This document shows, in pieces, positions 2,195 to 64,000 of a stretch of DNA of 64,000 nucleotides; within the stretch, counting starts at the first letter, position 1; every line of letters begins with the position of its first letter. The position numbers and the translations under genes were made by a program. The DNA is from Natronorubrum sediminis. GTDB lineage: Archaea > Halobacteriota > Halobacteria > Halobacteriales > Natrialbaceae. The stretch spans positions 1,426,001 through 1,490,000 of the forward strand of contig NZ_FNWL01000001.1 of NCBI RefSeq assembly GCF_900108095.1, read 5' to 3'. A model generated the notes under the pieces. It saw only the letters and a list, made by a program, of their open reading frames with translations. It did no database searches and was not told where the DNA came from.

Positions 2195-3358
2195 CTACAG
2201 TTCGGACGTCGACGTGTAGGCGAACGACGACCCGGAAACGTCGAACCGATCTGCCCGAAATGGCGCGGTCGAAAACGGTGCTCGCTCGCCAGTCAGTCGC
2301 TCGCGGATCGTCGGTCCCACGATCGGCGACGTCATGATCCCCAATCCGTTGAATCCCGTCGAGACGACCAGTCCGTCGGGGGCGTCCGGCGGCTGGTCGA
2401 CGATCGGCCGCGTATCCGGCGTCGCCACGTCGATCCCGGCCCAGCCGTTGACGAACCCGGCGTCGTCGAACCCGGAAAGCACCGACGGCACGACGGAAGC
2501 GACCTGCCGGGTGAACGACTCGTCGGCGTCGCTCGAGGCCGCGAGCGGGTCCGAAACCGTCTCGTGAGCCCCGCCGACGAGCAGGTCGCCGTTGTGCTCC
2601 GGCCGGAAGTAGAGGTGTTCGCTGCCAATTCGGCCGATCGGCGTCGCCTCGTCGAGGGGTTCTGACGGCTCGAGAACAACGCACTGCGTCCGATACGGTC
2701 GAATCGGAAGGGTGAGACCGGTCGGGAGGAGTTCTTGCGTTCGCCACCCGGCAGCGACGACGACGGCGTCGGCGTCGTACCGGCCGGCAGTCGTTTCGAC
2801 GCCGGTGACTCGTCCGTTCGCCGTAGTGATTTCGGTGACCTCGACCCCGGTCTCGACGCTCGCGCCGCGCGATTGGGCGTCCGTGCGAAGCGCGTTCGCG
2901 TAGGTGTAGGGATCGACCCAGCCCGTATCCCCGTACAGTATCGCGCCGCCGTCTTCGGGAGAGTCGATTCGCGGAAATTCACTCGAGAGCCGCGATCGCT
3001 CGAGGTAGGTGACGTCGAAGCCCGCCTCAGTCAGTTCGGAGGCCGTTTCCCGGGCGTCCTCCGCTTCTTCGGCCGAGACGAAGTCGAGTCGGTGGCGTTC
3101 CGTGAACGAGAAGGCGTCCGTGCCGTCGAACTCCCGAACGAACTCGTTCGCGTGCCGTGCGATGTCCGGCAAGTCGCCGTAGAACAGCGTCGGCGCGACG
3201 ACTCCAGCCGAGAGGCCCGTCGCGCCAGCCGCGACGTCACTCGACTCGAGGAGCGTGACGTCGTGATCGCTCGCGAGTTCTCGAGCGGCGTGACAGCCGC
3301 CGATTCCAGCGCCGATGATTACGATCCGCTCGAGGGCGTGCTCCGCGTTCACAGTCAT
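2195..3358 (-). CDS. FAD-dependent oxidoreductase (DAO family)
   Basis: A 387-residue flavoprotein of the D-amino-acid-oxidase (DAO) fold. A dinucleotide-binding GAGIGG motif lies at residues 16-21 and an acidic residue ends the second strand (LLES). A TGLSAGVV segment corresponds to the flavin-pyrophosphate loop. The C-terminal part has the PDTRPIV and GFNGLGIMTSP elements typical of glycine oxidase, sarcosine oxidase and amine dehydrogenase relatives. It should oxidise an amine or hydroxy acid in the cytoplasm; the substrate is unknown. It is transcribed divergently from a second DAO protein at 3590, suggesting a shared promoter region and perhaps related substrates. Confidence 0.85.
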   Translation of the reverse strand: MTVNAEHALERIVIIGAGIGGCHAARELASDHDVTLLESSDVAAGATGLSAGVVAPTLFYGDLPDIARHANEFVREFDGTDAFSFTERHRLDFVSAEEAEDARETASELTEAGFDVTYLERSRLSSEFPRIDSPEDGGAILYGDTGWVDPYTYANALRTDAQSRGASVETGVEVTEITTANGRVTGVETTAGRYDADAVVVAAGWRTQELLPTGLTLPIRPYRTQCVVLEPSEPLDEATPIGRIGSEHLYFRPEHNGDLLVGGAHETVSDPLAASSDADESFTRQVASVVPSVLSGFDDAGFVNGWAGIDVATPDTRPIVDQPPDAPDGLVVSTGFNGLGIMTSPIVGPTIRERLTGERAPFSTAPFRADRFDVSGSSFAYTSTSEL

Positions 3359-3589: not shown

Positions 3590-4765
3590 ATGAAAGTCGG
3601 TATCGTGGGCGGCGGCGTCTACGGCCTCGCCGTCGCCTACTACCTGAGCGAGTTCGGGGACGAAGACGTGGACGTCGTCTGCTTCGAGCGCGGGTCGCTC
3701 GCGAGCGAGTCGACGGGCTACTCGGCCGGCATCGTCCGCCATCACTACACGAATCCCGTCCAGATCGAGACGGCCATCCGCGGGCGCGAACTCCTCGAGG
3801 AGTTCGAATCCGTCGACGGCGGCGACGGCGGCTTCCGCCAGAACGGCTACCTGTTTCTCGCGGACCCGGACGCGAAGTCCGAGTTCAGAACGGTCGTCGA
3901 CCGACAACGACGGGCCGGCCTCGAGGTGGAACTCCTCGACGCCGACGAAGCCGCGTCCCTGTTACCCGCGCTCGATCCGGATGGAGTCTCGCTCGCGGCG
4001 TACGAACCGCAGGCGGGTTTCGCCGACCCCTATCTGGTCGCGACGGGGTTCGCCGCGGGGGCGCGAGACAACGGCGTCGAGATCCGAACCGACACGCCGG
4101 TCACCGATATTCGACTTGAGGGCGAGCGGGCGACGGCCGTCGAGACCCCGGAAGGAGTCGAGTCAGTCGACTACGTCGTCAACGCCGCCGGCGCGTGGGG
4201 TGGGGAACTCGCCGAGATGGTCGGTGTCGACGTCCCACTCGAGTGGTACGAGTCGAAAATCGTCGTCCTTCAATCGGAGACGTCCTACGGCCCCGACCTA
4301 CCGACGCTGTCGGATCACTCGCGAGCGCCGGATATGTACCTGAAACCCGAGCCTAGCGGCGACTTCATCGCCGGCGGCGTCGACCGGCCGCCTGTCGATC
4401 GGTCCGTCGGCCTCCGGGGCGTCGGTGAGTCGTTCCTTCGTGCCGTCGGCGAACGCCTCGAGGGGCGCGTGCCGGGGTACGCCGACGCGAGCGTCGTCGA
4501 CTCGTGGTCCGGCATCATCACCGTCACGCCGGACTCCCACCAGATCGTGGGCGTCCCGGACGGCGTCGAGAACGTCTACAACGTCCTCGGCGGCAGCGGC
4601 CACGGGTTCAAGGAGTCGCCCGCGTTCGGCGAATCGATCGCGCTGGACATCCTCGGTCGGTCACCCCGGATCGACCTCGAGGCGTACCGACTCTCGCGAT
4701 TCGAGACGGGAGACGGCCTCTACGGCGTCAGCGCGAAATCCTACGGCGACGGCCGTGACGAGTGA
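3590..4765 (+). CDS. FAD-dependent oxidoreductase (DAO / sarcosine-oxidase-like)
   Basis: A 391-residue DAO-family flavoprotein. The FAD-binding motif GGGVYG is at residues 7-12. An STGYSAGIVRHHY segment near residues 44-56 is in the position of the flavin-contacting loop. The C-terminal WSGIITVTPDSHQIVG and GGSGHGFKESPAFGE stretches are the second FAD contact seen in sarcosine and dimethylglycine oxidases. It probably oxidises a secondary amine or amino acid. It is divergent from the DAO gene at 2195-3358 and is followed 97 bp later by the thiolase-like/DUF35 pair on the same strand, so co-transcription is possible but not shown. Confidence 0.86.
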   Translation: MKVGIVGGGVYGLAVAYYLSEFGDEDVDVVCFERGSLASESTGYSAGIVRHHYTNPVQIETAIRGRELLEEFESVDGGDGGFRQNGYLFLADPDAKSEFRTVVDRQRRAGLEVELLDADEAASLLPALDPDGVSLAAYEPQAGFADPYLVATGFAAGARDNGVEIRTDTPVTDIRLEGERATAVETPEGVESVDYVVNAAGAWGGELAEMVGVDVPLEWYESKIVVLQSETSYGPDLPTLSDHSRAPDMYLKPEPSGDFIAGGVDRPPVDRSVGLRGVGESFLRAVGERLEGRVPGYADASVVDSWSGIITVTPDSHQIVGVPDGVENVYNVLGGSGHGFKESPAFGESIALDILGRSPRIDLEAYRLSRFETGDGLYGVSAKSYGDGRDE

Positions 4766-4862: not shown

Positions 4863-6026
4863 ATGACAGCTTCGACGCCGGTCGTATCGGGAGTCACGCA
4901 ACTCCCCAACGGGACGCACGACGCGCCGGAACAGGAACTCGCACTCGAGGTGATCCTCGACGCGCTCGATGACGCCTCGACACCCCTCTCAGCCGTCGAC
5001 GGGCTCTACATGTCCGCACCGCGGCCGTGGACGGACCAGAAGTTCTTCTCGACGGCGCTGCACCACCGACTCGGTCTCGAGACGACCCGAACGCTCGAAC
5101 TCTCGACCGGCGGCACGAGCGGCGGACAGGCCTTTCACGCGGCCGTCTCGGCCGTTCGCCGCGGCGAGGTCGACACGGCCGTCGTCTTCGCGGTCGAACG
5201 CAATTCCTCGATCGAAACGACTGACTCCTACTTCGAGTACGCCCTTCGGATGTTCGACGTCGAATTTCAATCGCCGACGGGGCTCTCCGTCCCCGGCGTC
5301 TACGCCCAGAGCCTCCAGCGCTACCTCCACGAGTACGATGTCGACCACGAGGCCGTCGCCAACATCGTCGTCGAGAAGCGCACCAATGCCGCCGACGACC
5401 CGAACACCCTCTTTGACGATACCGTGACGCGAGCGGACGTCCTCGAGGCCCGGCCCATCGCCGACCCGCTTACCCTCCTCGAGTGTCCAGCACCCTGTGA
5501 CGGCGGGGCCGCCCTCGTCGTCTCGAGCGCCGAGGAGGCACGCGACGAAGAGCGAGCGGTCGAAGTCGCCGGCATCGGCTCTCACCACGCCTCGAGTCAC
5601 ATGCTGGTGAGCCACGGCGAATCGGTGACCGAACTGCCGGCCGTCGAGTCCGCCGCAGACGCCGCGAGCGAGCAGGCAGGCGTTCCGACGGACGAGGTCG
5701 ACGTCTACGAGCCCTATGCGCCGTTCCCGCACATCGAGGCGATGACGGTCGAAGCGTTGGGCCTCGCTGTCCGCGGCGAGGGCGTCGACGCCTGTCTCGA
5801 GGGGAAGACCGCACCGGACGGCGAGTTCCCGATCAGTCCCTCCGGGGGCTGCATCGGGCGCGGCCACCCGCCCATGGTGACGCCGCTGCTCAATCACGTC
5901 GAAGCCGTGAAGCAACTCCGCGGGACGGCGTCGACGCAGATTCCAGACGCGCGAAGCGTCCTGACGACGGCGGAGCACGGACACGTGAACGGGGCGACGG
6001 CAACGATCTTTCAGACGGAGGCCTGA
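4863..6026 (+). CDS. Thiolase-like protein lacking both catalytic cysteines (DUF35 partner)
   Basis: A 387-residue thiolase-fold protein. The start at 4863 follows 97 bp of non-coding sequence and gives a family-like N-terminus; the open frame extends further upstream only as an overlap with the preceding gene. Where thiolases carry the nucleophilic Cys, this protein reads LELSTGGTSGG (residues 78-88), with no Cys. The GGCIGRGHPP loop (328-337) keeps the catalytic His 335. The C-terminal Cys site reads EHGHVNG (371-377), again without Cys. It is followed after only 3 bp by a DUF35 protein. Cys-less, DUF35-linked thiolase relatives include steroid side-chain aldolases such as Ltp2, so a C-C cleaving aldolase is a real alternative to acyl transfer. 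Confidence 0.85.
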   Translation: MTASTPVVSGVTQLPNGTHDAPEQELALEVILDALDDASTPLSAVDGLYMSAPRPWTDQKFFSTALHHRLGLETTRTLELSTGGTSGGQAFHAAVSAVRRGEVDTAVVFAVERNSSIETTDSYFEYALRMFDVEFQSPTGLSVPGVYAQSLQRYLHEYDVDHEAVANIVVEKRTNAADDPNTLFDDTVTRADVLEARPIADPLTLLECPAPCDGGAALVVSSAEEARDEERAVEVAGIGSHHASSHMLVSHGESVTELPAVESAADAASEQAGVPTDEVDVYEPYAPFPHIEAMTVEALGLAVRGEGVDACLEGKTAPDGEFPISPSGGCIGRGHPPMVTPLLNHVEAVKQLRGTASTQIPDARSVLTTAEHGHVNGATATIFQTEA

Positions 6027-6029
6027 CCG

Positions 6030-6455
6030 ATGAGCGAACACACGGACACCGAGCGAGCCGAAACGGACGCCTTCGGAACCGACCGATTCTGGGACGCATT
6101 GGCCGACGATCGATTCTTGATCCGGCGGTGTACGGACTGCGAGGAGGCCTTTTTCCCGCCGGGTCCGATCTGCCCGCACTGTCACTCGAGGGCCGTCTCC
6201 TGGGCGGAGTCGAGTGGCGTCGGGACCGTCTTCTCGTTCACGCGCCAGCACGCGACGGCACCGATGTTCGACGACGAACTCGTCGTCGGACTCGTCGAAC
6301 TCGAGGACGGACCGCGGGTGCTCTCGGCGTTCGAGAGTCGCTACGAGGACCTCGAGATCGGTGCCCCCGTCCGCCTCGAGGCGGTCGAATACGACCAGGA
6401 GTTCGATCGGGGTAGACGCGAGGACGAGCCGTTTTTCGTCGCGACGCTCGAGTAG
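6030..6455 (+). CDS. DUF35 OB-fold, zinc-ribbon acyl-CoA-associated protein
   Basis: A 141-residue protein of the DUF35 family: an N-terminal rubredoxin-like zinc ribbon (RRCTDCEEAFFPPGPICPHC, with four Cys in two CxxC pairs near residues 32-50) and a C-terminal OB fold (GVGTVFSFTRQHA, then GLVELEDGPR). DUF35 proteins bind thiolase-like partners and help hold acyl-CoA substrates, as in archaeal HMG-CoA synthase complexes and in steroid-degrading aldolase or hydratase complexes. The start codon lies 3 bp after the stop of the thiolase-like gene, so the two are almost certainly one transcript and one complex. Confidence 0.9.
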   Translation: MSEHTDTERAETDAFGTDRFWDALADDRFLIRRCTDCEEAFFPPGPICPHCHSRAVSWAESSGVGTVFSFTRQHATAPMFDDELVVGLVELEDGPRVLSAFESRYEDLEIGAPVRLEAVEYDQEFDRGRREDEPFFVATLE

Positions 6456-6549: not shown

Positions 6550-8514
6550 TTAGTTTTCAGCCGATGCTTCCGCAGTCATCGACTGCGAGGCGAACGGGTT
6601 GTTGGTCTGGAACAGGTAGAGCACGAGGATCCCGACTAGCGCGCCGACCCGAACGGTGTTCTCGGGGAAGATAATCGCCGTCGTCCCGAGAACGAAGAAC
6701 ACGCTCCGCATGACCATCGTCGGTGGCATGCTCATGTTGATCGAGCGTGTGTTCAGGCCGTGGACGACGCCCAGTGCGCCGGCCAGCGCGATTCCGGCGG
6801 AGATGAGCGTTTCGACGGTGAATCCGTCGACGACGAGTTCAGGGTTGTAGATGAACGCGATCGGCAGGATGAACAACACTGCTGAAACCTTGAGCGCCTC
6901 GAAACACGTGCGCCAGAAGTTCGAGCCGGCAATACCTGTAGCCACCACCACCGCAATCGCAATTGGTGGCGTCAACCCGGAGAGAATCGCCGAGTAGAAC
7001 ACGAAGTAGTGGGCGGCCATCTCCTCGACGAGGAACTGACTCGCGAGTGTCGGTGCGATGAGGAACGCCACGACGATGTACGCCGCGACGGTCGGCATCC
7101 CGAGTCCGAGCAGGATGCAGATGACCATCGCGAGGATCACGGTCAGTGCCATGTTGCCACCTGCGAGGTCGATCAAGGCGAGCGACATCGTCCCCGGAAG
7201 CCCGGTCTGGGTGAGGATGTCGACGATGCCGTTGACCGCAGCGACGATGATGACGATCGGTGCCAGCGTAATTGCACCGTACTTCAGCCCCATCGCTGTC
7301 TGTTTGACAACGTCCCACGTCTCCGCTCGCATCTGGCTGCTGTCTTCGTACGCCTGCTGGGCGAGTGGCACGCCAAATCCGGTCAGAAGCATCGTGATGA
7401 CGGTGTACATCCCCGCAGTCATCACCGTCCACTGTAGGACACCGAGCGTATAGACGAGCACGATGAACGGGATGATGAATCGCGCAGCCTGAACGAGTAA
7501 CTCTTGGGTGGTCTTCGCTTCGTCGAGGTAATCGCTCGGGTCGACCTCGACGGCCTGGCCGACCTGTTCGACCGTCGTGTAGTGGACGGCCATGACCAGC
7601 GAGATGTAGAAGATGAGCGCCGGAATGATGCCCGCGATGACGACCGTCAGGTACGTCGTCCCGAGAATCGAGGCCATCACGAACGCTGCCGCACCCATGA
7701 CGGGCGGCATGATCTGTCCACCCGAAGACGCGACGGATTCGATCCCGCCAGCCGTGTCGGATCGCATCCCGTGTTCTTTCATCAACGGAATCGTGAACGA
7801 ACCGGTAATCGCGGTGTTCGCCGCCTGGCTACCGGTGATCGAACCGATGATGATGCTCGCGGTCACTGCAGCCTGACCGACGCCGGATTTGATGTACTTC
7901 GTCGAACGCAACGCTGCTCGAAGGATCAGATCGAACGCCCCGTAGCCGCGCATGAGTCCCGCATAGAGCAGGAACAGTGCCACTTCGGAGGCCATGATCC
8001 GGTGGATCGTGCCGACGAATCCTTCCATGTCGAGGACGGTAACGAGCAACAGTCGTTCACCGCTGAATCCGCCGTGGTTCAGCAGGCCCGGGAAGTAGTT
8101 CCCGAACATGCCGTAAATGAACGCCAGGACGACGACCAGGAAGAACACGAGTCCGTACGATTTGTACGTCAAGTACAGAATCGTGAACATGAGTCCCGCT
8201 GCGAGGGCGTACTCGTGCGTGTGGGCGTACCCGACCCGCGTGTAGATCAGGGCCTCGTAGTAGTACGTCATGTACACCGTCGCAACGACCCCTAAGATCC
8301 CTGCGAGGACGAGTAAGCCGACGTGTATCCATTGTTCTTCTTCGATAGTCTCCTCGAGATTGTCGAAGACGGCGATCGCGATCATGAACCCGAGGAAGAT
8401 CACACCGTATCGGGCCTGTGCGATCCCCTGTGTCTGTGCAAACCAAAGTGTGACGAGCCAGGAAACGGTCGCCGCCACGAACAGTGCTCTGTTGACGTTC
8501 TGTATCACATTCAT
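6550..8514 (-). CDS. TRAP transporter permease, fused small and large subunits
   Basis: A 654-residue polytopic membrane protein of the 4TM/12TM TRAP fusion type that pairs with TAXI-class binding proteins. It has roughly 16-18 hydrophobic segments. Hallmarks of the large-subunit part are GSITGSQAANTAITGSFT, SSGGQIMPPVMGAAAFVM, LGMPTVAAYI and LTPPIAIAV. The ATG at 8514 is preferred over an upstream in-frame start at 8535 because a GGAGG ribosome-binding site lies six bases upstream of it. It follows the TAXI binding-protein gene by 128 bp on the same strand and should form the ion-driven uptake channel for a carboxylate. Confidence 0.92.
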   Translation of the reverse strand: MNVIQNVNRALFVAATVSWLVTLWFAQTQGIAQARYGVIFLGFMIAIAVFDNLEETIEEEQWIHVGLLVLAGILGVVATVYMTYYYEALIYTRVGYAHTHEYALAAGLMFTILYLTYKSYGLVFFLVVVLAFIYGMFGNYFPGLLNHGGFSGERLLLVTVLDMEGFVGTIHRIMASEVALFLLYAGLMRGYGAFDLILRAALRSTKYIKSGVGQAAVTASIIIGSITGSQAANTAITGSFTIPLMKEHGMRSDTAGGIESVASSGGQIMPPVMGAAAFVMASILGTTYLTVVIAGIIPALIFYISLVMAVHYTTVEQVGQAVEVDPSDYLDEAKTTQELLVQAARFIIPFIVLVYTLGVLQWTVMTAGMYTVITMLLTGFGVPLAQQAYEDSSQMRAETWDVVKQTAMGLKYGAITLAPIVIIVAAVNGIVDILTQTGLPGTMSLALIDLAGGNMALTVILAMVICILLGLGMPTVAAYIVVAFLIAPTLASQFLVEEMAAHYFVFYSAILSGLTPPIAIAVVVATGIAGSNFWRTCFEALKVSAVLFILPIAFIYNPELVVDGFTVETLISAGIALAGALGVVHGLNTRSINMSMPPTMVMRSVFFVLGTTAIIFPENTVRVGALVGILVLYLFQTNNPFASQSMTAEASAEN

Positions 8515-8520
8515 TGTTGA

Positions 8521-8526
8521 TCCTCC
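8521..8526 (-). promoter_or_regulatory. Shine-Dalgarno site deciding the TRAP permease start
   Basis: Minus-strand GGAGGA ends six bases before the ATG at 8514. It supports internal translation initiation within a TAXI-permease transcript. Confidence 0.6.
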
Positions 8527-8642
8527 ATTACTCACCGATAGTGGTGAACACCGATTCGTGCAACGTTGCGAATATCATGTGTGTCAGGCTGTGTATTTAG
8601 ATATAAACGGTGGATGACGTCACGTACTGAAAAACGTGCGTC

Positions 8643-9686
8643 TCAGTCACCACGTTCCCAGTCGTCGTTCCAGGCGTCGTTGTCCTCGAGGAAGTCGGCG
8701 GCACCGGGATGGACGGGAATGTTCTCGTGGTAGTATTGGGCCATATCCGCTGGGTCGGAGTGATCCATGTAGTTGTCGTCCGCATCCTGGATCTCTTCCC
8801 AGTGTTCGTGGCTGATCTCCATGATCTCGTAGACGACCTCGTCGTCGATGTCGGAGGCGAAGTACGTATTGTAGTCTTCGGTCCAACACTGAATCTCGTC
8901 CGCGTCGATGTCCTGTTCGTACCCGTACGGTTCGACCTCTTCGTACCCGGCCGCAGAGCCTTCGATCGCCTCGACGTAGTCGTCGCCCATCTCGAGGGCG
9001 TAGAGATCCTCTCGAGAGTCGGCTTCGACGAGCCAGCCGGGGAGACCGTTGAAGTTGGTTCCGTAGCCGAAGAAGACGTCGATGCGGTCTTCGTCGATCT
9101 GTGCGGCGACGTCCTCCGAGGCGACGTCGACTGGGTCTTCGATGTCGTCCCAGAGACCGGCGTCGTCTAGAAGGGTCGTACAAAGCGTTCTGAGCCCCCA
9201 CCCTGGCGGACCGACCCAGATGTTGAGGTCGTCGTCGTCGATCGCTTCCTCGATGCTCTCGACACCGGAGCCGTCGACGGCCAGCCAGTGCATGTGGAGC
9301 GTGAGGTACGAGAGCGCCTGATAGGCGAAGTCGTCGACGGGTTCCTCGTCGAACGGTTCGCCGTCGTCGAGCGCCTGATTGAAGACGAAGTTACCCGCCG
9401 TGTACCCGTCCAGTTCGCCCGCGTCGTACGCCCGGATCGAGTCGGGGTCTCCACCAGGTGCCGTGATGTTCAGTTGCGCGTCTTCCGCGTGATTCGACAC
9501 CGACCGCTGGAGGGCGTTCATCGCGCCGTACGACGCAGACCCGTCAGATGAGGCCCCAACTGTAACCGTTTCGCCACCATCGCCGAGACATCCCGCCAAG
9601 CCAACGACACCGAGGCCGGCACTCGCTTGAAGCACAGTGCGGCGACTGACCCTACCCTTCGCTTCGTGATTGGAATTGCTCGTCAT
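8643..9686 (-). CDS. TAXI-family TRAP solute-binding lipoprotein
   Basis: A 347-residue extracytoplasmic binding protein. The ATG at 9686 gives an ideal Tat signal, SRRTVLQ at residues 14-20, followed by a hydrophobic stretch and a lipobox ending in Cys 33. The longer upstream open frame would bury this signal. The mature part has the TAXI pattern: TVTVGASSDGSASYGAMNAL early on, then GGDPDSIRAYDAGELDGYT. It is very acidic, as expected for a protein exposed to high salt. It should capture a small carboxylate, possibly glutamate-like or a dicarboxylate, for the fused permease downstream. A TATA-like AT-rich block lies at about 9711-9725. Confidence 0.9.
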   Translation of the reverse strand: MTSNSNHEAKGRVSRRTVLQASAGLGVVGLAGCLGDGGETVTVGASSDGSASYGAMNALQRSVSNHAEDAQLNITAPGGDPDSIRAYDAGELDGYTAGNFVFNQALDDGEPFDEEPVDDFAYQALSYLTLHMHWLAVDGSGVESIEEAIDDDDLNIWVGPPGWGLRTLCTTLLDDAGLWDDIEDPVDVASEDVAAQIDEDRIDVFFGYGTNFNGLPGWLVEADSREDLYALEMGDDYVEAIEGSAAGYEEVEPYGYEQDIDADEIQCWTEDYNTYFASDIDDEVVYEIMEISHEHWEEIQDADDNYMDHSDPADMAQYYHENIPVHPGAADFLEDNDAWNDDWERGD

Positions 9687-9710
9687 TCTATAGCACGGTA
9701 TATGGTCGTC

Positions 9711-9725
9711 GTAATAACTATATAA
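9711..9725 (-). promoter_or_regulatory. AT-rich promoter candidate for the TAXI-TRAP operon
   Basis: Minus-strand TTTATATAGTTATTAC lies 25-39 bp upstream of the TAXI ATG, in otherwise GC-rich DNA. This is the right place for an archaeal TATA box. Confidence 0.4.
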
Positions 9726-9917
9726 ATCCTTCCAATCAGTACACAACAATGGTATAAAATTTCGTATTTTTTCCAAAAAGAGGTAACTCAGATATGCGGC
9801 AATATAATCCGATTCGTGGGGAGGCGAGAGCGACGACCGACGGTTTTCCGGCACAGAACGACTCTCACGTCGTCGAACGTGAGTCCCCGAGCCGGCGGGC
9901 GACTCACCGGCGAGTGG

Positions 9918-12491: not shown

Positions 12492-13253
12492 ATGAGCGTC
12501 GACCTGACTCTCGACTCGAACCGACCCCACATCGCACACCTGACCATCGACTTCGGGAAGTTGAACCTGCTCACGGCACAGCGACTCGCCGAACTCGAGG
12601 AAACTCTTCGAGACCTGCCGGAGCAGGTCTCCGTCCTCACGATCGGGCCGGAACACTCGCCGGAAAAACTGACCGGGCTGACCGGTGGCTTGCACCTCGA
12701 GCGCGCGAAAGACATGAGCGTCGTCGAGGCTCGAGACGTGTTGACGACGCTCCACGCCACGATGCAGACGGTCCGAAATCTTGACGCCGTCACCGTCTGT
12801 GACTGCGGGACGCACGCCCTCGGGGCCGGCTTCGAACTCGCGCTCTCGTGTGACTTTCGCGTCGCGACTCGAGACGCCGTCCTCGGCCTCCCCGAAATCG
12901 ACGTGGGGCTCGTGACGGGCATCGAAGGCGGCCTGCTGGTTCGGTTCGTCGGCCTCCAGCGCGCGAAGGAACTGATCTACCTCGGCGAACCGATCGACGG
13001 CAAGCAGGCCGCCGCGGAAGGGCTCGTCAACGAGGCGACGACGCCCGAAACGCACGACGACGCGCTCGAGGGAATCGTCGAGCGACTCGCCGAGAAGGAC
13101 CCGACGATTTTGCAGTACCAGACGGAGGTCTTCCGGCAGTGGCGCTCGAACGGCCTCGAGACGGGGATGGACCACAGCTTAGAACTCATCGCGGCCTGTT
13201 TCGGCACCGAGGCCCAATCCGAGGCGATGGAAGGGTTCCTCGAAGGACGGTGA
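12492..13253 (+). CDS. Enoyl-CoA hydratase/isomerase (crotonase) family protein
   Basis: A 253-residue crotonase-fold protein. The oxyanion-hole segment HALGAGFELALSCDFRVA lies around residues 113-130, and GLPEIDVGLVTGIEGG (about 134-149) carries the Glu usual for hydratases. The N-terminal half is divergent (EKLTGLTGGLHLERAKDMS in place of the FSAGAD loop), so the exact reaction is open. The ATG at 12492 was chosen because a TATA-like box lies about 28 bp upstream and the frame above it is promoter-like DNA. It is followed 92 bp later by a CaiB-type CoA-transferase and is probably in the same operon, acting on the acyl-CoA it produces. Confidence 0.82.
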   Translation: MSVDLTLDSNRPHIAHLTIDFGKLNLLTAQRLAELEETLRDLPEQVSVLTIGPEHSPEKLTGLTGGLHLERAKDMSVVEARDVLTTLHATMQTVRNLDAVTVCDCGTHALGAGFELALSCDFRVATRDAVLGLPEIDVGLVTGIEGGLLVRFVGLQRAKELIYLGEPIDGKQAAAEGLVNEATTPETHDDALEGIVERLAEKDPTILQYQTEVFRQWRSNGLETGMDHSLELIAACFGTEAQSEAMEGFLEGR

Positions 13254-13280: not shown

Positions 13281-13345
13281 GTCGCCTACACTGAATGCGA
13301 TGGGAAAAGATAACACACAGCAACGATAACGAAGAGGTGACGGCT

Positions 13346-14524
13346 ATGCAACCACTTGAGGGTATCGACGTACTCGATTTCACACAATCGATCGCCGGAC
13401 CGATCTGCACGCAATCACTGACAGCGCTCGGTGCGAACGTTGTCAAGATAGAACCACCGGACGGAGACGCCTTTCGCCCGCTGATCGACGGGGCGATGTT
13501 CGCCTCGTGCAATCGCGGGAAACGGAGTCTCAGTCTCGACCTCAAAAGCGACGAGGGCCGTGCACTCGCCCAGGAACTCGCGGCCGAAGCCGACGTCGTC
13601 GTCGAGAGCTTCCGGCCCGGCGTGATGGAACGCTACGACCTCGACTACGAGTCGGTGTCCGAGACGAACGACGACGTCGTCTACTGCTCCGTGACCGGTT
13701 TCGGGCAGGACGGTCCCTACGAAGACTATCCCGCCTACGATCCCATCGCGCAGGCGATGTCGGGACTACTGAGCGTTACTGGCCCGGCGGACGGAAAACC
13801 AGCCCGCGTCGGGACGAGCGCGATCGACTACACGACCGGGCTGACGGCCGCGATGCTCGTCATGGGCGGCCTGCTCGGTCGACACTCCGGCGGCAGCGAA
13901 CACATCGACGTCTCGCTGTTCGAGGTCGCCACGACGTGGATGGGTTACCGCGTCGCGGAGTACACCGCGACCGACCAGGTGCCGACGCGCTCCGGCGACA
14001 CCATCGACGGCATCGCTCCATACGGTATCTTCGAGGCGGGCGACGGCGATCCGTTCTACCTCGCCACCGCCTCCACGAAGCTCTACCACCGACTCTGTCG
14101 AACCCTCGAGCGCGAGGACCTCCTCGAGGACGAGCGATTCGAGACGCTCAGCAGCCGCTCGGAGCACCGCGAGACCCTCCGAGCCGAACTCGAAGAGGCG
14201 TTCGCCGAGTACGATCGACGGGAACTCGTCGAGCGACTCGTGTCGGGTGGCATCCCGGCCGGGCCGGTACAGTCGATCGACGAACTCGTCGAGGAGGACC
14301 CACATGCTGAGTCGCGAGACTTCTTCGTCGAGACGTACAACCAGCACCTCGAGGAACCCTGCCGGACGACCCGGCTACCGTTTAGATTCGAAGACGGGCC
14401 GGTCGACGACCTCGAGTCGCCGCCGCGACAGGGCGAACACTCGCGGGCCGTCCTCGAGGAGTGGGGCTACGACGATGAGACGATCGAAGCGCTGCTCGCA
14501 GACGGTGTCATCGTGGAATCGTAG
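13346..14524 (+). CDS. CaiB/BaiF family CoA-transferase
   Basis: A 392-residue class III CoA-transferase. The family N-terminus is clear (DVLDFTQSIAGPICTQ, then GANVVKIEPP, ESFRPGVMERYDLDYE). The Asp expected to form the acyl anhydride is D161 in SAIDYTTGL. A Shine-Dalgarno-like GAGGTGA (13334-13340) precedes the ATG. It moves CoA from a donor such as succinyl-CoA onto a carboxylic acid. It is a close paralogue of the gene at 49181, with the same length class and shared motifs throughout. It lies downstream of a crotonase, so the pair plausibly activates and then hydrates one acid. Confidence 0.92.
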   Translation: MQPLEGIDVLDFTQSIAGPICTQSLTALGANVVKIEPPDGDAFRPLIDGAMFASCNRGKRSLSLDLKSDEGRALAQELAAEADVVVESFRPGVMERYDLDYESVSETNDDVVYCSVTGFGQDGPYEDYPAYDPIAQAMSGLLSVTGPADGKPARVGTSAIDYTTGLTAAMLVMGGLLGRHSGGSEHIDVSLFEVATTWMGYRVAEYTATDQVPTRSGDTIDGIAPYGIFEAGDGDPFYLATASTKLYHRLCRTLEREDLLEDERFETLSSRSEHRETLRAELEEAFAEYDRRELVERLVSGGIPAGPVQSIDELVEEDPHAESRDFFVETYNQHLEEPCRTTRLPFRFEDGPVDDLESPPRQGEHSRAVLEEWGYDDETIEALLADGVIVES

Positions 14525-18137: not shown

Positions 18138-19274
18138 TTACTCGTAGAGTTGGTTCGCGACGACGACGCGATTGATCTCGTTCGTCCCCTCGTAGATCTG
18201 CATCCCCTTTGCGACGCGCATGCGACGCTCAAGCGAGTAGTCCTTGGAGTAGCCTCGAGAGCCGTGGACCTGGACGGCCTCGGTGGTGACGTCCATCGCC
18301 ACGTCCGTCGCCTTCGTCTTCGCCATCGCGGCCTCGGCGGTGACGCGTTCGTCTCGGTCGCGTTTCGCCGCCGCGGCGAGAGTCAACAGCCGCGACGCTT
18401 CGATCTCGATCGCCATGTCCGCGAGTTTGAACGAGACCCCCTGAAACTCACGAATTGGCTGGCCGAACTGCTCGCGCTCGTCCGCGAAGGCCGTGCTCTC
18501 CTCGAACGCACCCTGTGCGACGCCGACACCCTGTGCCGCCGTGCCGATTCGACCGATGTCGAGCCCCTCGAGCACGTATCGAAGGCCCCGTCCCGGTTCG
18601 CCGATGACGTTCTCGACCGGAACGCGAACGCCGTCGTAGCGAATTTCGGTCTCGACGGCCGTCTCGCCTTCCATGCACGGAATGTCTCGGACGAACTCGA
18701 GGCCGTCGCGCTCGGCTGGCTCTGGCACGCCGATCAGGCTGACGCCCTCGTCCGTCTGGACCCCGACGACGAGGAAGTCGGCGATGCTGCCGTTAGTCGT
18801 CCAGACCTTCTCGCCCTCGAGGACGTACTCGTCACCGTCTCGCGTCGCCGTGGTCTCGAGTGAGCCGGCGTCGCTACCCGCGTTGGGTTCGGTGAGCGAG
18901 AGGGCAGGAATCCACTCACCCGAGCAAATCCTGGTGAGCCACTCCTCGCGTTGCCACTCCTCGCCGAACTCGTGGATCGGGTAGCCGACGAGGCTGCCGG
19001 CGACCGAGGCGGTGCCCGCGAGGAGTTTCCAGCTTCGGGAGAGCTCCTCGATCGTGATTGCGTAGGAGCGGTAGTCGAGCCCGAGTCCGTCGTACTCACT
19101 GCCGTACTGCACACCGTGAAATCCGGCGTCTGCGACCGTCTCGACGACGTCCATCGGGAACGTGCCCGACTCCTCGTACTCCTCGATGTGGGGTTCGACT
19201 TCGTCCTCGCAGAACTGGCGAACCGTCTCTCGATGCTCCTCGTGTGCGTCCGTGAGTTCGAACGATGAGATCAT
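18138..19274 (-). CDS. Acyl-CoA dehydrogenase
   Basis: A 378-residue FAD enzyme with the three-part acyl-CoA dehydrogenase fold: an N-terminal helical domain, a middle beta domain (SLTEPNAGSDAGSLETTA, then KVWTTNGSIADFLVVG) and a C-terminal helical domain (SRGYSKDYSLERRMR). The catalytic Glu is present in the classical IYEGTNEINR motif near the C-terminus. The ATG at 19274 begins MISSFELTDAHEEH, a normal start; the longer upstream frame is promoter DNA. It introduces a 2,3-double bond into an acyl-CoA and passes electrons to ETF. It is divergent from the acyl-CoA ligase at 19489, a natural partner. Confidence 0.93.
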   Translation of the reverse strand: MISSFELTDAHEEHRETVRQFCEDEVEPHIEEYEESGTFPMDVVETVADAGFHGVQYGSEYDGLGLDYRSYAITIEELSRSWKLLAGTASVAGSLVGYPIHEFGEEWQREEWLTRICSGEWIPALSLTEPNAGSDAGSLETTATRDGDEYVLEGEKVWTTNGSIADFLVVGVQTDEGVSLIGVPEPAERDGLEFVRDIPCMEGETAVETEIRYDGVRVPVENVIGEPGRGLRYVLEGLDIGRIGTAAQGVGVAQGAFEESTAFADEREQFGQPIREFQGVSFKLADMAIEIEASRLLTLAAAAKRDRDERVTAEAAMAKTKATDVAMDVTTEAVQVHGSRGYSKDYSLERRMRVAKGMQIYEGTNEINRVVVANQLYE

Positions 19275-19488: not shown

Positions 19489-21051
19489 GTGACACAGCCA
19501 ACCACTGCTGACGTGCTGGGCCAGGCTGCGGCTCGGTTCCCGGACCGACCCGCGCTTCGCGACCCCATGCGCGACGAAACCGTCTCATTCGCTCGTTTGG
19601 ACGAACGCGCGCGAGACCTCGCTTCGGGACTGCTCGAGACCGAACTGGAACCCGGCGATCACCTCTCGGTGCTGACGAACGACTCCCTCGAGTTCGTCGA
19701 ACTCCTGTTCGCGTCGGCTCACGCGGGCCTGGTCTTCAACCCGATCAGTTACCGCGTCCCGCCGAAGCGACTGGCGTACGTCCTCGAGAACGCCGGTTCA
19801 GCAGGACTCGTCGTCGACGACGCCTGTCTCGACACCGTTCGCGCACTCGAGGCCGAGGCGTTGCCCGAGTTGCTCGTCGGAATCGACGTCGACGACGAGC
19901 GAGCGAGCGTCTCGTACGAGTCTCTCCGCGGTGAACGGACATCTCGCAGTGACGACGGCGATCTGGGTCCGGTCGTCGACGTCGACGAAGCAGATCCCGC
20001 GTTGCTCCTCTACACCTCCGGGACGACGGGCCAGCCGAAGGGGGTTCTCCACTCTCACCGAACTGTGGTGAACGCCTCGCTCGTCTCCCTGCCGTACAAT
20101 CGTCTGCGACCGACCGACGTCAACGTCGCGCTCGGCCCGCTCTACCACGTCGGGCCGCTGCTCTGTAACGTCCTGCCCGCGCTGAACGCCGGCGCCTGTA
20201 ACGTGATCCAACACGGTTTCGACCCCGAGACGACCCTCGAGCGAATCGAATCGGAGGGCATCACGACGATGTGGGCCGTCCCGACGCACATCCGAGCGCT
20301 GGTCGACGAACCGTCGATCGAGACGCGAGACGTCGAGCACGTCCGAATGATCCAGTACTCTGGCGCGGCGATGCCCGAAGCGGTAGCGAGGAGAGCACGC
20401 GAGCACGTCTCCGACTGTGACTTCGTCAACGCCTACGGCACGACGGAGATCGTCTTCGGGACGCTCATCCACCCGGAGTTCCACGACGAGAAACTGGGGA
20501 GCATCGGGCAGGCAGCACCGAACGCGGCCGTCCGCGTCGTCGATCCCGAAAACCCCGTCCCCGAGGCCGAACTCGAGGCGAACGAGGTCGGCGAACTCCT
20601 CGTGAAGAACACGACGCGCATGCTCGAGTACTGGAAGAACCCCGAGGCGACCGAGGAGGCGCTCGTCGACGGCTGGTACCGAACCGGTGACCTCGGGCGC
20701 AGAGACGAGGACGGCTTCCTCTACTTCGTCGACCGAAAGGACGACATGATCGTCAGCGGCGGCGAGAACATCTATCCCGCAGAGGTCGAGGATCTCCTGC
20801 ACAGCCACCCCGAGGTAGTCTCCGGCGCAGTCGTCGGCGTCCCCGACGACGAGTGGGGCGAAGTCGTCACCGCCTTCGTCGTCCCCGACGGCGACCTCTC
20901 GAGTGAGGACCTCGAGGAGTTCTTCGTCGACTCCGAGGAACTCGAGTCGTTCAAACGCCCTCGAGAGTACGTCTTCGAGGACGAACTGCCGAAGACGAGC
21001 AGCGACAAAATCGATCGACGGGCGCTGCTCGAGTCGATCGTCCCGGAGTAG
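19489..21051 (+). CDS. AMP-forming acyl-CoA synthetase
   Basis: A 520-residue ligase of the ANL superfamily. The AMP-binding P-loop YTSGTTGQPKGV is near residues 170-181, the A5 motif NAYGTTEI near 318, the A7 motif GWYRTGDLGRRDEDGF near 395, and the hinge and A8 motif DRKDDMIVSGGENIYPAEVE follow. The C-terminal catalytic Lys lies in LPKTSSDKIDR. It activates a fatty or aromatic acid to acyl-AMP and then acyl-CoA in the cytoplasm. The GTG start at 19489 is supported by its spacing from a TATA-like box. It is divergent from the acyl-CoA dehydrogenase. Confidence 0.93.
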   Translation: MTQPTTADVLGQAAARFPDRPALRDPMRDETVSFARLDERARDLASGLLETELEPGDHLSVLTNDSLEFVELLFASAHAGLVFNPISYRVPPKRLAYVLENAGSAGLVVDDACLDTVRALEAEALPELLVGIDVDDERASVSYESLRGERTSRSDDGDLGPVVDVDEADPALLLYTSGTTGQPKGVLHSHRTVVNASLVSLPYNRLRPTDVNVALGPLYHVGPLLCNVLPALNAGACNVIQHGFDPETTLERIESEGITTMWAVPTHIRALVDEPSIETRDVEHVRMIQYSGAAMPEAVARRAREHVSDCDFVNAYGTTEIVFGTLIHPEFHDEKLGSIGQAAPNAAVRVVDPENPVPEAELEANEVGELLVKNTTRMLEYWKNPEATEEALVDGWYRTGDLGRRDEDGFLYFVDRKDDMIVSGGENIYPAEVEDLLHSHPEVVSGAVVGVPDDEWGEVVTAFVVPDGDLSSEDLEEFFVDSEELESFKRPREYVFEDELPKTSSDKIDRRALLESIVPE

Positions 21052-26628: not shown

Positions 26629-28818
26629 TCAATTCGATCGGGGATCGAGCAATTCGATAGGATGTGGTGGTTCGGTTTCCGTGAACGCTGCAAGTTGGTC
26701 GCGACACGACGTCCCACTCGCAACGATTTGTCCCGGTGGAAGGGTCGCGTTGAGTCGATCTCCAATGTCCGTGCTGAGTTCGTAGTACTCCTGTTTGTAC
26801 CCGAAACTACCCGCCATTCCACAACACTCAACCGATGTCGTCTCGACGTCGTAGCCAACTCGTTCGAGGACGGTGACCGTGTATGCCGCAAGGTCGAGTG
26901 TTCGTTGCTGGCAATGGCTGTGGTACGCGAGCGAGTGATCGGAGTCTACCCCCGCAAGCGCTTCGAGGTCCCCTCCGTTCTCGAGAAGACCGTAGACGTA
27001 CTCAAGGACCTCGTAGCTGTTCTCGGCGAGGTGTTCCGCTGAACGGGCGGGGAGGAACTTTTCGTAATCGTCGCGAAACATCGCGAGGTCGCTCGGTTCG
27101 ATTACGACGATATCCCGTTCGGCGTCGATGTGCTCAGCGAGTCGTTCGTAGATATCGCTCGCGCGTTCGTCTGCCGTCTCTATCATTCCCTGAGAGAGCG
27201 GCGCTCGACCGCTCTCGGGCAAAGATGGGACGCGAACGGCAACATCGAGCGCCTCCAGCACCCGAACGGTCGCTCGGCCACGTTCTGGCGCGAAATAGTT
27301 CGTATACACGTCCGGATAGAGGATCGCTGTTCGGTCGGCGTTCGACGAGTCGACGCGCGAGCCTCGTTTCTCGAACCAGTCTTGAAACGTCTCGTCGGCA
27401 AACGTCGGTAGCGCTCTCCGGTGATCGATCCCTGCTGCTCGCTCGAGGAGCGAGCGAACGGGACCGGTATTGGCCAACATGTTCGATAGCGACGGCGCGA
27501 TACTGCCGAGTTTCGCCACGGTATCGATGTTACCGAAAACGCGTTTTTGGACGTCCACTCCGGCGGGTTCTTCGTCCGGCGTGAGTCCATCGACCAAAAA
27601 GTCGAACGTTCCCGTTTCCGTATCCTGATTCAATCGACTCCGGACAACGGTGTTGATCCAGGGAATGTCGATTTTCACGGGACACTTCGGAACGCAGCGA
27701 GAACAGCCAGTGCAGAGATCTTTCATGTCCTCCGCCGCGTCCGGGCCGTGGACGCCGGCTTCCCACCCGGTTCCGATCCCGCCGGTATACGTTTCTCCGC
27801 CGAATGCGTGCCCACCGACGCTCTGAAAGTTCGCGCAGGTGTTCGCACACGCACCACAACGGATACAGTAGAGCGTTTCCCGGAGTTGCTCGTCCGCTCG
27901 CATCTCGGTCCGTCCGTTATCAAGCAACACGAGGTGAAACTCGCGCTCTTCCCCGTCGCCGAGTTCATTCGCGTCGAAATCGACGGTTGGCGTTTCGACG
28001 GGTGGCGAGATGAGCGAGACGTACGACGTAATATCCTGGCCGGTTCCCGACCGACCGATGAGTTCGATGAACGGACGAACGTCGGAGACGGTCGGTAGCA
28101 ATTTTTCGATGCCAGCGACGGCGATGTGGACCGGCGGCGTAACGGCTGTCTTTCTGGCGTTACCCTCGTTCGTTACCAAACAGATCGTCCCCGATTCGGC
28201 GGCGACGAAATTCGCGCCAGTCAGCCCAACGTCGGCCTCGAGGATTCGCTGGCCAACCTGTTTGCGAGCGAATTCCGTGAGTTCCTCGGGGTCGGCCTCG
28301 AAGGGGGCTTCCGGGTCGAACACCTCGTTGAACAGTTGGGCAATCGATTCGGTCGATCGGTGCATCGACGGGCCGATGAGGTGTGATGGCGTTTCGTCGG
28401 CGATCTGCACGACGAACTCCCCGAGGTCGGTTTCGGCGACTTCGTAGCCGTCGGCCTTGAGGTGGTCGTTCAGATCAATTTCCTCGGTGGTCATCGACTT
28501 GCTCTTGGCGATCGTCTCGGCGTCGTTGTCGGCCATTACGGAGGCGACGTAGCGATTTGCGTCCGCAGCGTCTTGAGCGACGTACACCGACCCGCCGTTT
28601 GCCTCGACAGCCTCGGTCACCGTGTCGATGAGTGACGGAAGGTTCTCGATGGCTTGCTCCTTGATATCTCGGGCGGTCTCGCGGAGTGATTCTGATTCTT
28701 CGAACGAGTCGAGTGCTTCGCCGGCCCCCTTATTCCGTTCTATTGCCCGTACGCTCACTGCCTCGCCGTCGGTTTCCATGACGGACCGGATTCGATCAGC
28801 GCGTTCGCCTCGACTCAT
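26629..28818 (-). CDS. LUD-domain iron-sulfur protein (LutB-LutA-type fusion)
   Basis: A 729-residue cytoplasmic oxidoreductase component. Residues about 40-300 are a LUD domain (AESGTICLVTNEGNAR). Two 4Fe-4S clusters follow: C318, C321, C324, C328 and C369, C372, C375, C379. The C-terminal third is a CCG-type (HdrB-like) region with an intact second motif, ECCGMAGSFGY, near residue 665. The first CCG site is degenerate: the expected Cys are Val (DVYTNY) and Glu-Ser (ESGRAPLSQG). LutB and LutA, separate in Bacillus, are thus joined here. It likely oxidises lactate or a similar hydroxy acid with the LutC-like protein encoded one base upstream. The frame extends far upstream, but ATG 28818 fits the operon. 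Confidence 0.88.
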   Translation of the reverse strand: MSRGERADRIRSVMETDGEAVSVRAIERNKGAGEALDSFEESESLRETARDIKEQAIENLPSLIDTVTEAVEANGGSVYVAQDAADANRYVASVMADNDAETIAKSKSMTTEEIDLNDHLKADGYEVAETDLGEFVVQIADETPSHLIGPSMHRSTESIAQLFNEVFDPEAPFEADPEELTEFARKQVGQRILEADVGLTGANFVAAESGTICLVTNEGNARKTAVTPPVHIAVAGIEKLLPTVSDVRPFIELIGRSGTGQDITSYVSLISPPVETPTVDFDANELGDGEEREFHLVLLDNGRTEMRADEQLRETLYCIRCGACANTCANFQSVGGHAFGGETYTGGIGTGWEAGVHGPDAAEDMKDLCTGCSRCVPKCPVKIDIPWINTVVRSRLNQDTETGTFDFLVDGLTPDEEPAGVDVQKRVFGNIDTVAKLGSIAPSLSNMLANTGPVRSLLERAAGIDHRRALPTFADETFQDWFEKRGSRVDSSNADRTAILYPDVYTNYFAPERGRATVRVLEALDVAVRVPSLPESGRAPLSQGMIETADERASDIYERLAEHIDAERDIVVIEPSDLAMFRDDYEKFLPARSAEHLAENSYEVLEYVYGLLENGGDLEALAGVDSDHSLAYHSHCQQRTLDLAAYTVTVLERVGYDVETTSVECCGMAGSFGYKQEYYELSTDIGDRLNATLPPGQIVASGTSCRDQLAAFTETEPPHPIELLDPRSN

Positions 28819-62427: not shown

Positions 62428-64000
62428 TCAGAAGCCGACCGCCGAACCGTCTTTTCGCGGGTCGCTACCGCCCGAGAGGACGCCGTCCGTGTTACGCGCG
62501 ATCTGGCCGCCGCCGAAGTGTGCGGGCGGCATTACCCGAACTTCGTGGCCGCGACGAGCGAGTTTCGTCTGAACACGCCCCTCGAGTCGGCCTTCGACGG
62601 CGAGTTGCCCGTCGACCTGGTAGCGCCAGCGCGGGAAGTCGATCGCTTCCTGAACCGACATCCCGTCGTCGAGCAGGTTCATCAGCACCTGGAGGTGCCC
62701 CTGTGGCTGGTTGTAGCCGGCCATGACGCCGAAGGCCGCCCAGTCGTCGTCCTCGAGTTTGGCGATGCCGGGAAGCAGGGTGTGGAACGGCCGTTTGCCG
62801 GGTTCGATCCGGTTCGGGTGGTCGGGATCGAGCGAGAACGAACTGCCGCGATTCTGGAGGGCGATGCCGGTGTCGCCGGCGACGATGCCGCTGCCGAAGT
62901 CCTTGAATCGGGAGTTGATGAACGAAACGACGTTCCCTGCCTCGTCCGCGACCGTGAGCAAGACGGTATCCGCGTTCTCGGCACTGTCATTCTCGAAGCC
63001 GATCTCCACGTCCGAAGAGGCCTCCGCGTCGATCTCCGCCGCCCGCTCGGCCGCGTACTCCTTCGAAGCGAGATCCGGCACGTCCTCGAACCTCGGATCC
63101 GTGATGTAGTGGTGACCGTCGGCCATCGCCCGCTTCATCGCCTCGGCACCGAGGTGGATCCGTTCGGTCGACCCTGCCGGGTACTCGCCCGCGCCGAGTT
63201 CTTCGGCGATGTTGAGCGCCTCGAGAGCGATCAGGCCTTGATTGTTCGGCGGAAGTTCGTAGACCTCCGCGCCGTTGTACGTCGTACTGACGGGGTCGAC
63301 GAACTCGGGTTCGAACGACGCGAGATCGTCGTGCGAGAGGAAGCCGCCGCGGGATTGGACCGTGTCGACGATTTCGTCCGCGATGTCGCCCTCGTAGACG
63401 ACGTCGGCACCCTCCTCGGCGATACGTTGGAGGCTCTCACCTAGTTCCGGCAGCGTGACAGAATCGCCGACATCCGGCGCGTCGCCGTCGAAGAGGTACG
63501 CGTCTCGAGACTGCTCGCCGTCGAGCACGGAGGCGGCCTCCGCCCACTGGTCGGCGATGATCTCCGAGACGGGAAAGCCCTCGGTCGCGTACTCGATCGC
63601 CGGCTCGAGCGTCCGCGCCAGCTCGAGTTCGCCGAGTTCCTCGACGGTTCGCTCCCAGCCCCGAGCCGTGCCGGGAACCGTGATCGTCTGCGGGCCGTAA
63701 ACCGGCATCTCGGCGTCTTCGGGGTCGACGTCTTGCTCCGCGGCGACGGCCTCCCGAACGCGCTCGAGGGTCGCATCACCCGGCGCACCGCCACAGCTTC
63801 GGAACGCGCCGACGTCGCCGTCTGCAGTTCTGTAGAGGGCGAAGAGGTCGCCACCGAGTCCGGTGCTCGTCGGTTCGACGACGTTGAGCACGGCCGCCGT
63901 CGCCACGGCGGCGTCGAAGGCGTTCCCGCCGTCTCGTAACACGGCGATTCCCGCTTCCGAGGCGAGTGGCTGGCTCGTCGCGACGATACCACGAGGCGCG
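62428..64000 (-). CDS. Gamma-glutamyltransferase-like Ntn hydrolase (5' end outside window)
   Basis: About 523 residues of a gamma-glutamyltranspeptidase-family protein are visible; the true start lies beyond base 64000, since the frame is open with the family's GIVATSQPLASEAGIAV at the edge. The GGNAFDAAVATAA helix and GLGGDLF follow. The nucleophile Thr that starts the small subunit is in ENADTVLLTVADEAGNVVS, and SGIVAGDTGIALQNRG is the glycine loop. It cleaves gamma-glutamyl amides after self-processing. No signal is visible because the N-terminus is cut. Confidence 0.92.
   Translation of the reverse strand, partial: APRGIVATSQPLASEAGIAVLRDGGNAFDAAVATAAVLNVVEPTSTGLGGDLFALYRTADGDVGAFRSCGGAPGDATLERVREAVAAEQDVDPEDAEMPVYGPQTITVPGTARGWERTVEELGELELARTLEPAIEYATEGFPVSEIIADQWAEAASVLDGEQSRDAYLFDGDAPDVGDSVTLPELGESLQRIAEEGADVVYEGDIADEIVDTVQSRGGFLSHDDLASFEPEFVDPVSTTYNGAEVYELPPNNQGLIALEALNIAEELGAGEYPAGSTERIHLGAEAMKRAMADGHHYITDPRFEDVPDLASKEYAAERAAEIDAEASSDVEIGFENDSAENADTVLLTVADEAGNVVSFINSRFKDFGSGIVAGDTGIALQNRGSSFSLDPDHPNRIEPGKRPFHTLLPGIAKLEDDDWAAFGVMAGYNQPQGHLQVLMNLLDDGMSVQEAIDFPRWRYQVDGQLAVEGRLEGRVQTKLARRGHEVRVMPPAHFGGGQIARNTDGVLSGGSDPRKDGSAVGF

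Follow-up and report, generated by a model that had tools for sequence, protein, structure and literature searches.

What reaction, if any, is carried out by a thiolase-fold protein of Natronorubrum sediminis that seems to have lost its catalytic cysteines and that is encoded next to a DUF35 protein? The two genes lie in a 64,000-nucleotide stretch of contig NZ_FNWL01000001.1 (positions 1,426,001 to 1,490,000), which we refer to as the window, and a first-pass annotation had proposed for them an aldolase of the Ltp2 type. Judging from the evidence described below, the complex is probably a retro-aldolase of 3-hydroxyacyl-CoA that would act through Tyr285 and His335, within a clade distinct from Ltp2. 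The pair consists of:

4863..6026, + strand: thiolase-fold protein of the 'YAPF' type, 387 aa long, predicted to be a subunit of an acyl-CoA retro-aldolase (Pfam, alignment, tree, AF2 model)
6030..6455, + strand: DUF35 partner of 141 aa, Zn-ribbon and OB-fold, zinc cysteines C34, C37, C48 and C51 (Pfam, alignment)

The DUF35 reading frame begins 3 bp past the TGA of the first, as annotated initially, and the two form a working gene pair. The first product matches the Pfam models Thiolase_C_1 (2.5e-29) and, more weakly, Thiolase_N (3e-8), and in NCBIfam it finds thiolase and lipid-transfer models only, all sub-threshold; the second matches zf-ChsH2 (2.4e-13) and OB_ChsH2_C (8.9e-12). The ATG start at 4863 is backed by co-linear starts among orthologs. 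A scan of the haloarchaeal class found an ortholog in 14 of 292 genomes (55-100% identity), followed by a sharp fall to paralogs at ~36%, and dN/dS values (NG86) for four ortholog pairs were about 0.10, 0.12, 0.14 and 0.18, reflecting purifying selection; for these reasons the frame is not a chance ORF. DUF35 is the next gene in all 27 loci examined (19/19 haloarchaeal, 8/8 bacterial), frequently with a 4 bp overlap between the two frames, and its four zinc cysteines are invariant among 14 aligned partners.

The AF2 model of the thiolase-fold protein depends on its input: an alignment of the 14 close orthologs alone gave a poor pLDDT of 68, and a broader alignment of 36 sequences raised it to 90.3, with a pTM of 0.93. 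Compared by VIA-align, this model is a full-length thiolase fold, with Z scores of 54.8 for 6esq, 52.1 for 7yvy, 47.9 for Sal (9myr), 47.0 for Ltp2 (6ok1) and 43.6 for 4u4e. The solved structures closest to the protein, in overall sequence and in modelled fold alike, are the Cys thiolases 7yvy and 6esq and not aldolases, which speaks against an aldolase; the ranking, however, tracks overall similarity and leaves the chemistry undecided.

The chemistry is better addressed at the catalytic columns, which we compared in a joint alignment with 32 collected relatives from haloarchaea, Asgard MAGs and Proteobacteria, the reference sequences being HMMER alignments of solved structures and two bacterial Ltp2-like genes. 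The columns of interest are:

5112..5114, + strand: codon of Gly84, replacing the thiolase nucleophile Cys (joint alignment; positions calculated from the start of the ORF)
5715..5726, + strand: YAPF motif, residues 285-288 (joint alignment)
5865..5867, + strand: codon of His335 (GRGHP), aligned with the catalytic acid Tyr344 of Ltp2 (alignment) and tentatively the proton donor
5973..5984, + strand: EHGH, residues 371-374, at the CxG site (joint alignment)

The motifs LSTGGTSGG, EHGHVNG and GRGHP are all present as first described, and by alignment the protein has no catalytic thiolase cysteine, Gly84 and Pro287 occupying the two places. The conclusion that both cysteines are missing was therefore right, but the CxG site was the wrong column from which to draw it for the second one: in Cys-type archaeal and SCP-x relatives this site reads HNLGGSG, and their second cysteine sits in HDCF. 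Because these relatives also have no cysteine at the CxG site, that site is non-discriminating in the present branch, and the informative change is that from HDCF to YAPF. All 32 relatives have Gly at position 84, as do 8/8 proteins of the Ltp2, Sal and 4u4e types, and 25/25 thiolases have Cys or Ser there. At position 285, all 32 relatives and the Ltp2/Sal/4u4e types have Tyr and all 25 thiolases have His; the column corresponds to Tyr294 of Ltp2 (YDHF) and Tyr302 of Sal (YDCY). Position 287, the column of Ltp2 His296, of Sal Cys304 and of the thiolase cysteine in HDCF, is Pro in every relative (32/32), the motif reading YAPF or YAPC. Gly84, Tyr285, Pro287, Arg333, His335 and Glu371 are invariant in the 32 relatives, Glu371 being a signature of the group, and Glu283 is a further invariant polar residue at the catalytic columns across archaea and bacteria.

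We use 'YAP' for the clade with these six residues and DUF35 as the next gene, all of which the window protein has. A scan of contigs and plasmids added haloarchaeal members from Natronorubrum, Natrialba, Natrinema, Halalkalicoccus, Halomarina and Halorientalis, and also matched three Asgard-type MAGs and proteobacteria at 31-34% identity; among Alphaproteobacteria, close relatives of the Pacificitalea protein occurred in only 4 of 289 genomes. In a maximum-likelihood tree of 53 rows, the 25 YAP sequences included form a single clade (support 100/98), apart both from Ltp2, Sal and 4u4e/YDSF (100/97) and from the Cys/Ser thiolases (98/93). The tree has no outgroup and its three groups join at one node, which is compatible with either aldolases or thiolases as the sister group of YAP. 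No description of the clade was found in the literature searched, which left subscription journals mostly outside its coverage. The clade is apparently uncharacterised and scattered among archaea and bacteria.

The N. sediminis genome encodes nine Thiolase_C_1 proteins: four HDCF proteins with Cys, one HDMF protein with Ser, three Cys-less YDSF proteins and the window protein, the sole YAP type. The three YDSF (4u4e-like) proteins are likewise paired with DUF35, fall in the Ltp2/Sal clade and lie nearer to Ltp2 than does the window protein. Their loci, L107 (G000:C2:443000-458500), L108 (G000:C3:293000-308000) and L109 (G000:C6:127000-142000), each lie near genes for acyl-CoA dehydrogenase, enoyl-CoA hydratase, AMP-ligase and 3-hydroxyacyl-CoA dehydrogenase. 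The Ser-type paralog L076 (TSSSGG, HDMF; locus L114, G000:C1:122000-139000) shows the residues that one would expect in a haloarchaeal Ser-His-His ketothiolase.

Around the pair, domain searches bore out the neighbours named at first, two DAO-type FAD oxidases and a TRAP permease with a TAXI binding protein; further genes of acyl-CoA metabolism lie 6-15 kb downstream:

2195..3358, - strand: DAO-family FAD oxidase
3590..4765, + strand: DAO-family FAD oxidase, upstream of the pair and on its strand, a putative functional partner
6550..8535, - strand: TRAP fused permease, recurring beside orthologs
8643..9854, - strand: TAXI-family TRAP solute-binding protein
12492..13253, + strand: enoyl-CoA hydratase-like gene, possible pathway partner
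13295..14524, + strand: class III CoA-transferase, possible pathway partner
18138..19274, - strand: acyl-CoA dehydrogenase, possible pathway partner
19567..21051, + strand: AMP-binding acyl-CoA ligase, possible pathway partner

The setting is most regular in bacteria. We examined eight proteobacterial loci, from Achromobacter, Roseomonas and Pacificitalea (annotated) and from Cupriavidus (two) and three alphaproteobacterial genomes (labelled by BLAST). They contain an acyl-CoA dehydrogenase (8/8), a MaoC hydratase (7/8), a CaiB CoA-transferase (6/8) and an ADP-forming acyl-CoA ligase (5/8), a gene set that matches the order of steroid side-chain chemistry: activate, desaturate, hydrate, cleave. 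A steroid link itself was not seen for the YAP-type pair in the loci examined. No 3-hydroxyacyl-CoA dehydrogenase was detected in these eight loci; nor was one detected in eight loci of other thiolase relatives used as controls, of which five are from N. sediminis and three from a single proteobacterial genome. Among the haloarchaeal YAP loci, three do match one. We therefore rejected its absence as proof of aldolysis, for which it is suggestive at most, and take only the presence of dehydrogenase and hydratase as informative.

Across the 19 haloarchaeal loci, dehydrogenase (7/19) and hydratase genes turn up less consistently than in the bacterial ones. MFS transporters occur in eight, TRAP-TAXI, M20 peptidase and CaiB in seven each, and DAO oxidase and gamma-glutamyltransferase in five each. 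A substrate could not be read from these neighbours, since the recurring gamma-glutamyltransferase, M20 peptidase, TRAP-TAXI, DAO oxidases and CoA-transferases point to no single compound. Gamma-glutamyltransferase stands beside the haloarchaeal orthologs at L039, L040, L042, L045 and L056, mostly together with M20 peptidase. The 14 ortholog genomes hold 30 matches to it in total; 4 were observed within the 17-kb loci against a roughly estimated 0.13 expected, so that the link to the orthologs is probably real. In the window itself the gene (62428-63942) is about 57 kb from the pair, and the same island carries a LUD-domain and 4Fe-4S protein, lactate-utilisation-like (26629-28779, - strand). 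A Jordarchaeia MAG has an ORF of 591 aa (L068:9876-11651, - strand) that joins a Ras-family GTPase domain (13-171) and Peptidase_M20 (265-571) in one frame.

With these observations in mind, one may propose a mechanism in which the complex cleaves, or forms, a C-C bond of a 3-hydroxyacyl-CoA, performing aldol chemistry instead of thiolysis of a 3-ketoacyl-CoA. In this scheme Tyr285 would deprotonate the beta-hydroxyl with help from the main chain at Gly84, the residue that stands in for the nucleophile. Cleavage between C2 and C3 would then yield an aldehyde or ketone and an acyl-CoA enolate, which His335 of the GHP motif, possibly with Glu371, would protonate, while DUF35 may shape the acyl-binding cleft. 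The original idea of an aldolase is partly supported, by the Gly-for-Cys exchange, by a Tyr shared with Ltp2 and Sal in 32/32 relatives, by the universal DUF35 partner and by the bacterial dehydrogenase-hydratase operons; the activity itself is predicted. In Sal, mutation of the Tyr equivalent to Tyr285 abolishes activity, and the Gly equivalent to Gly84 makes the enzyme incapable of thiolysis (PMC12329534). The weakest step is His335 as the acid: the proton donor is a guess because the acids of Ltp2 (Tyr344) and of Sal (Cys304) are both absent. Against His335 stands the finding that Sal does not retain activity when Cys304 is changed to His (PMC12329534), albeit at a different position.

Three other readings deserve consideration. 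The pair might be a beta-ketothiolase without a nucleophilic Cys, like the two-subunit BktB/PhaA of haloarchaea, in which a Ser-His-His catalytic subunit works with an OB-fold subunit. Such ketothiolases have been described (PMC7137286), in the same host group and with the same architecture, and the window protein has thiolases as its nearest solved structures and keeps the GHP His. This is nevertheless improbable, as the nucleophile position is Gly and not Ser in all 32 relatives, the HDxF His is replaced by Tyr, and it is the Ser-type paralog L076, not the window protein, that clusters with 4yzo in the thiolase clade.

Loss of the nucleophile also fits a decarboxylase, or another enolate-forming enzyme, that uses a malonyl-CoA-like substrate. 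Thiolase-fold proteins of this kind can decarboxylate: the related TbSLP, without the nucleophile Cys, does so slowly with malonyl-CoA, but at a mere 0.005 per s (kcat), and Sal lacks this activity (PMC12329534). An enolate-stabilising pocket would suit both reactions, yet the steps encoded in the bacterial operons yield a hydroxyacyl-CoA rather than malonyl-CoA, and we consider a decarboxylase unlikely. We give similarly little weight to the idea that this thiolase relative is non-catalytic and has been retained, together with DUF35, to scaffold a different enzyme. Both thiolase cysteines are lost, and DUF35 domains can act as scaffolds in multienzyme complexes (PMC12329534); however, the polar residues Tyr285, His335, Glu371 and Glu283 are invariant at the catalytic columns from archaea to bacteria, purifying selection is strong, and no further partner gene recurs in every locus examined.

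If the retro-aldolase reading is true, its implications extend beyond this locus. Of the thiolase-fold aldolases encountered here, those established by experiment, Ltp2 and Sal, both come from steroid breakdown. A further aldolase clade, in organisms in which a steroid pathway was not seen, would make aldolytic shortening of acyl-CoA a more general alternative to thiolysis, and 'thiolase family protein' would be a misnomer in YAP-bearing genomes. We tentatively suggest that haloarchaea, Asgard archaea and Proteobacteria may possess, in this clade, a third and independent line of acyl-CoA aldolases with the thiolase fold, one that works with a Tyr-His pair. Its role would be in a pathway that dehydrogenates, hydrates and then aldol-cleaves acids other than steroids. 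Because Tyr285, His335 and Glu371 are invariant, this idea is testable.

Among known systems, the steroid aldolase Ltp2-ChsH2(DUF35) (6ok1) resembles the window pair in its thiolase fold, nucleophile-site Gly, Tyr for the HDxF His and C4-zinc DUF35 partner. Its base is Tyr294 of YDHF and its acid Tyr344 (PMC12329534); of these tyrosines the first is kept as Tyr285 and the second is His335, so that the retained GHP His, noted at first as present, marks a difference from Ltp2 and not a likeness. YAPF instead of YDHF, Pro287 in place of the oxyanion His296, an identity of about 25% on the model and the position in a separate clade likewise set the protein apart, and we rejected membership in the Ltp2 type. 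The bile-acid aldolase Sal-Shy(DUF35) (9myr) and TbSLP (5ab4-7) also have the nucleophile-site Gly and the catalytic Tyr, Sal with a DUF35 partner as well, and Sal employs Tyr302 and Cys304 (PMC12329534). Their YDC(Y/F) motif differs from YAPF, and Sal membership was rejected for want of a Cys304 equivalent, Pro287 standing there, and for its tree position in the other clade.

The putative thiolase 4u4e of Sphaerobacter and the YDSF paralogs L072, L073 and L075 share the nucleophile-site Gly, the Tyr and HP at the GHP site, but have YDSF, GGSS and HGTGG motifs and cluster with Ltp2 and Sal. Haloarchaeal BktB/PhaA, compared through its described residues (the thiolase examined from the Haloferax mediterranei plasmid pHME505, L098, proved to be of the Cys type), has two subunits with a separate OB-fold partner in the same class of organisms; the window protein has Gly for its Ser, on which ground this identity was rejected, and Tyr for its His. 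Closest in structure are the archaeal Cys thiolases 7yvy (32% identity) and the DUF35-linked 6esq, from which the window protein differs in having neither the Cys nucleophile nor the HDCF/HDAF motif. With the SCP-x and archaeal Cys thiolases it has the GHP His in common (His335, 32/32), and where these have a nucleophile Cys and an HDCF-type His, in most with its Cys, it has Gly84, Tyr285 and Pro287.
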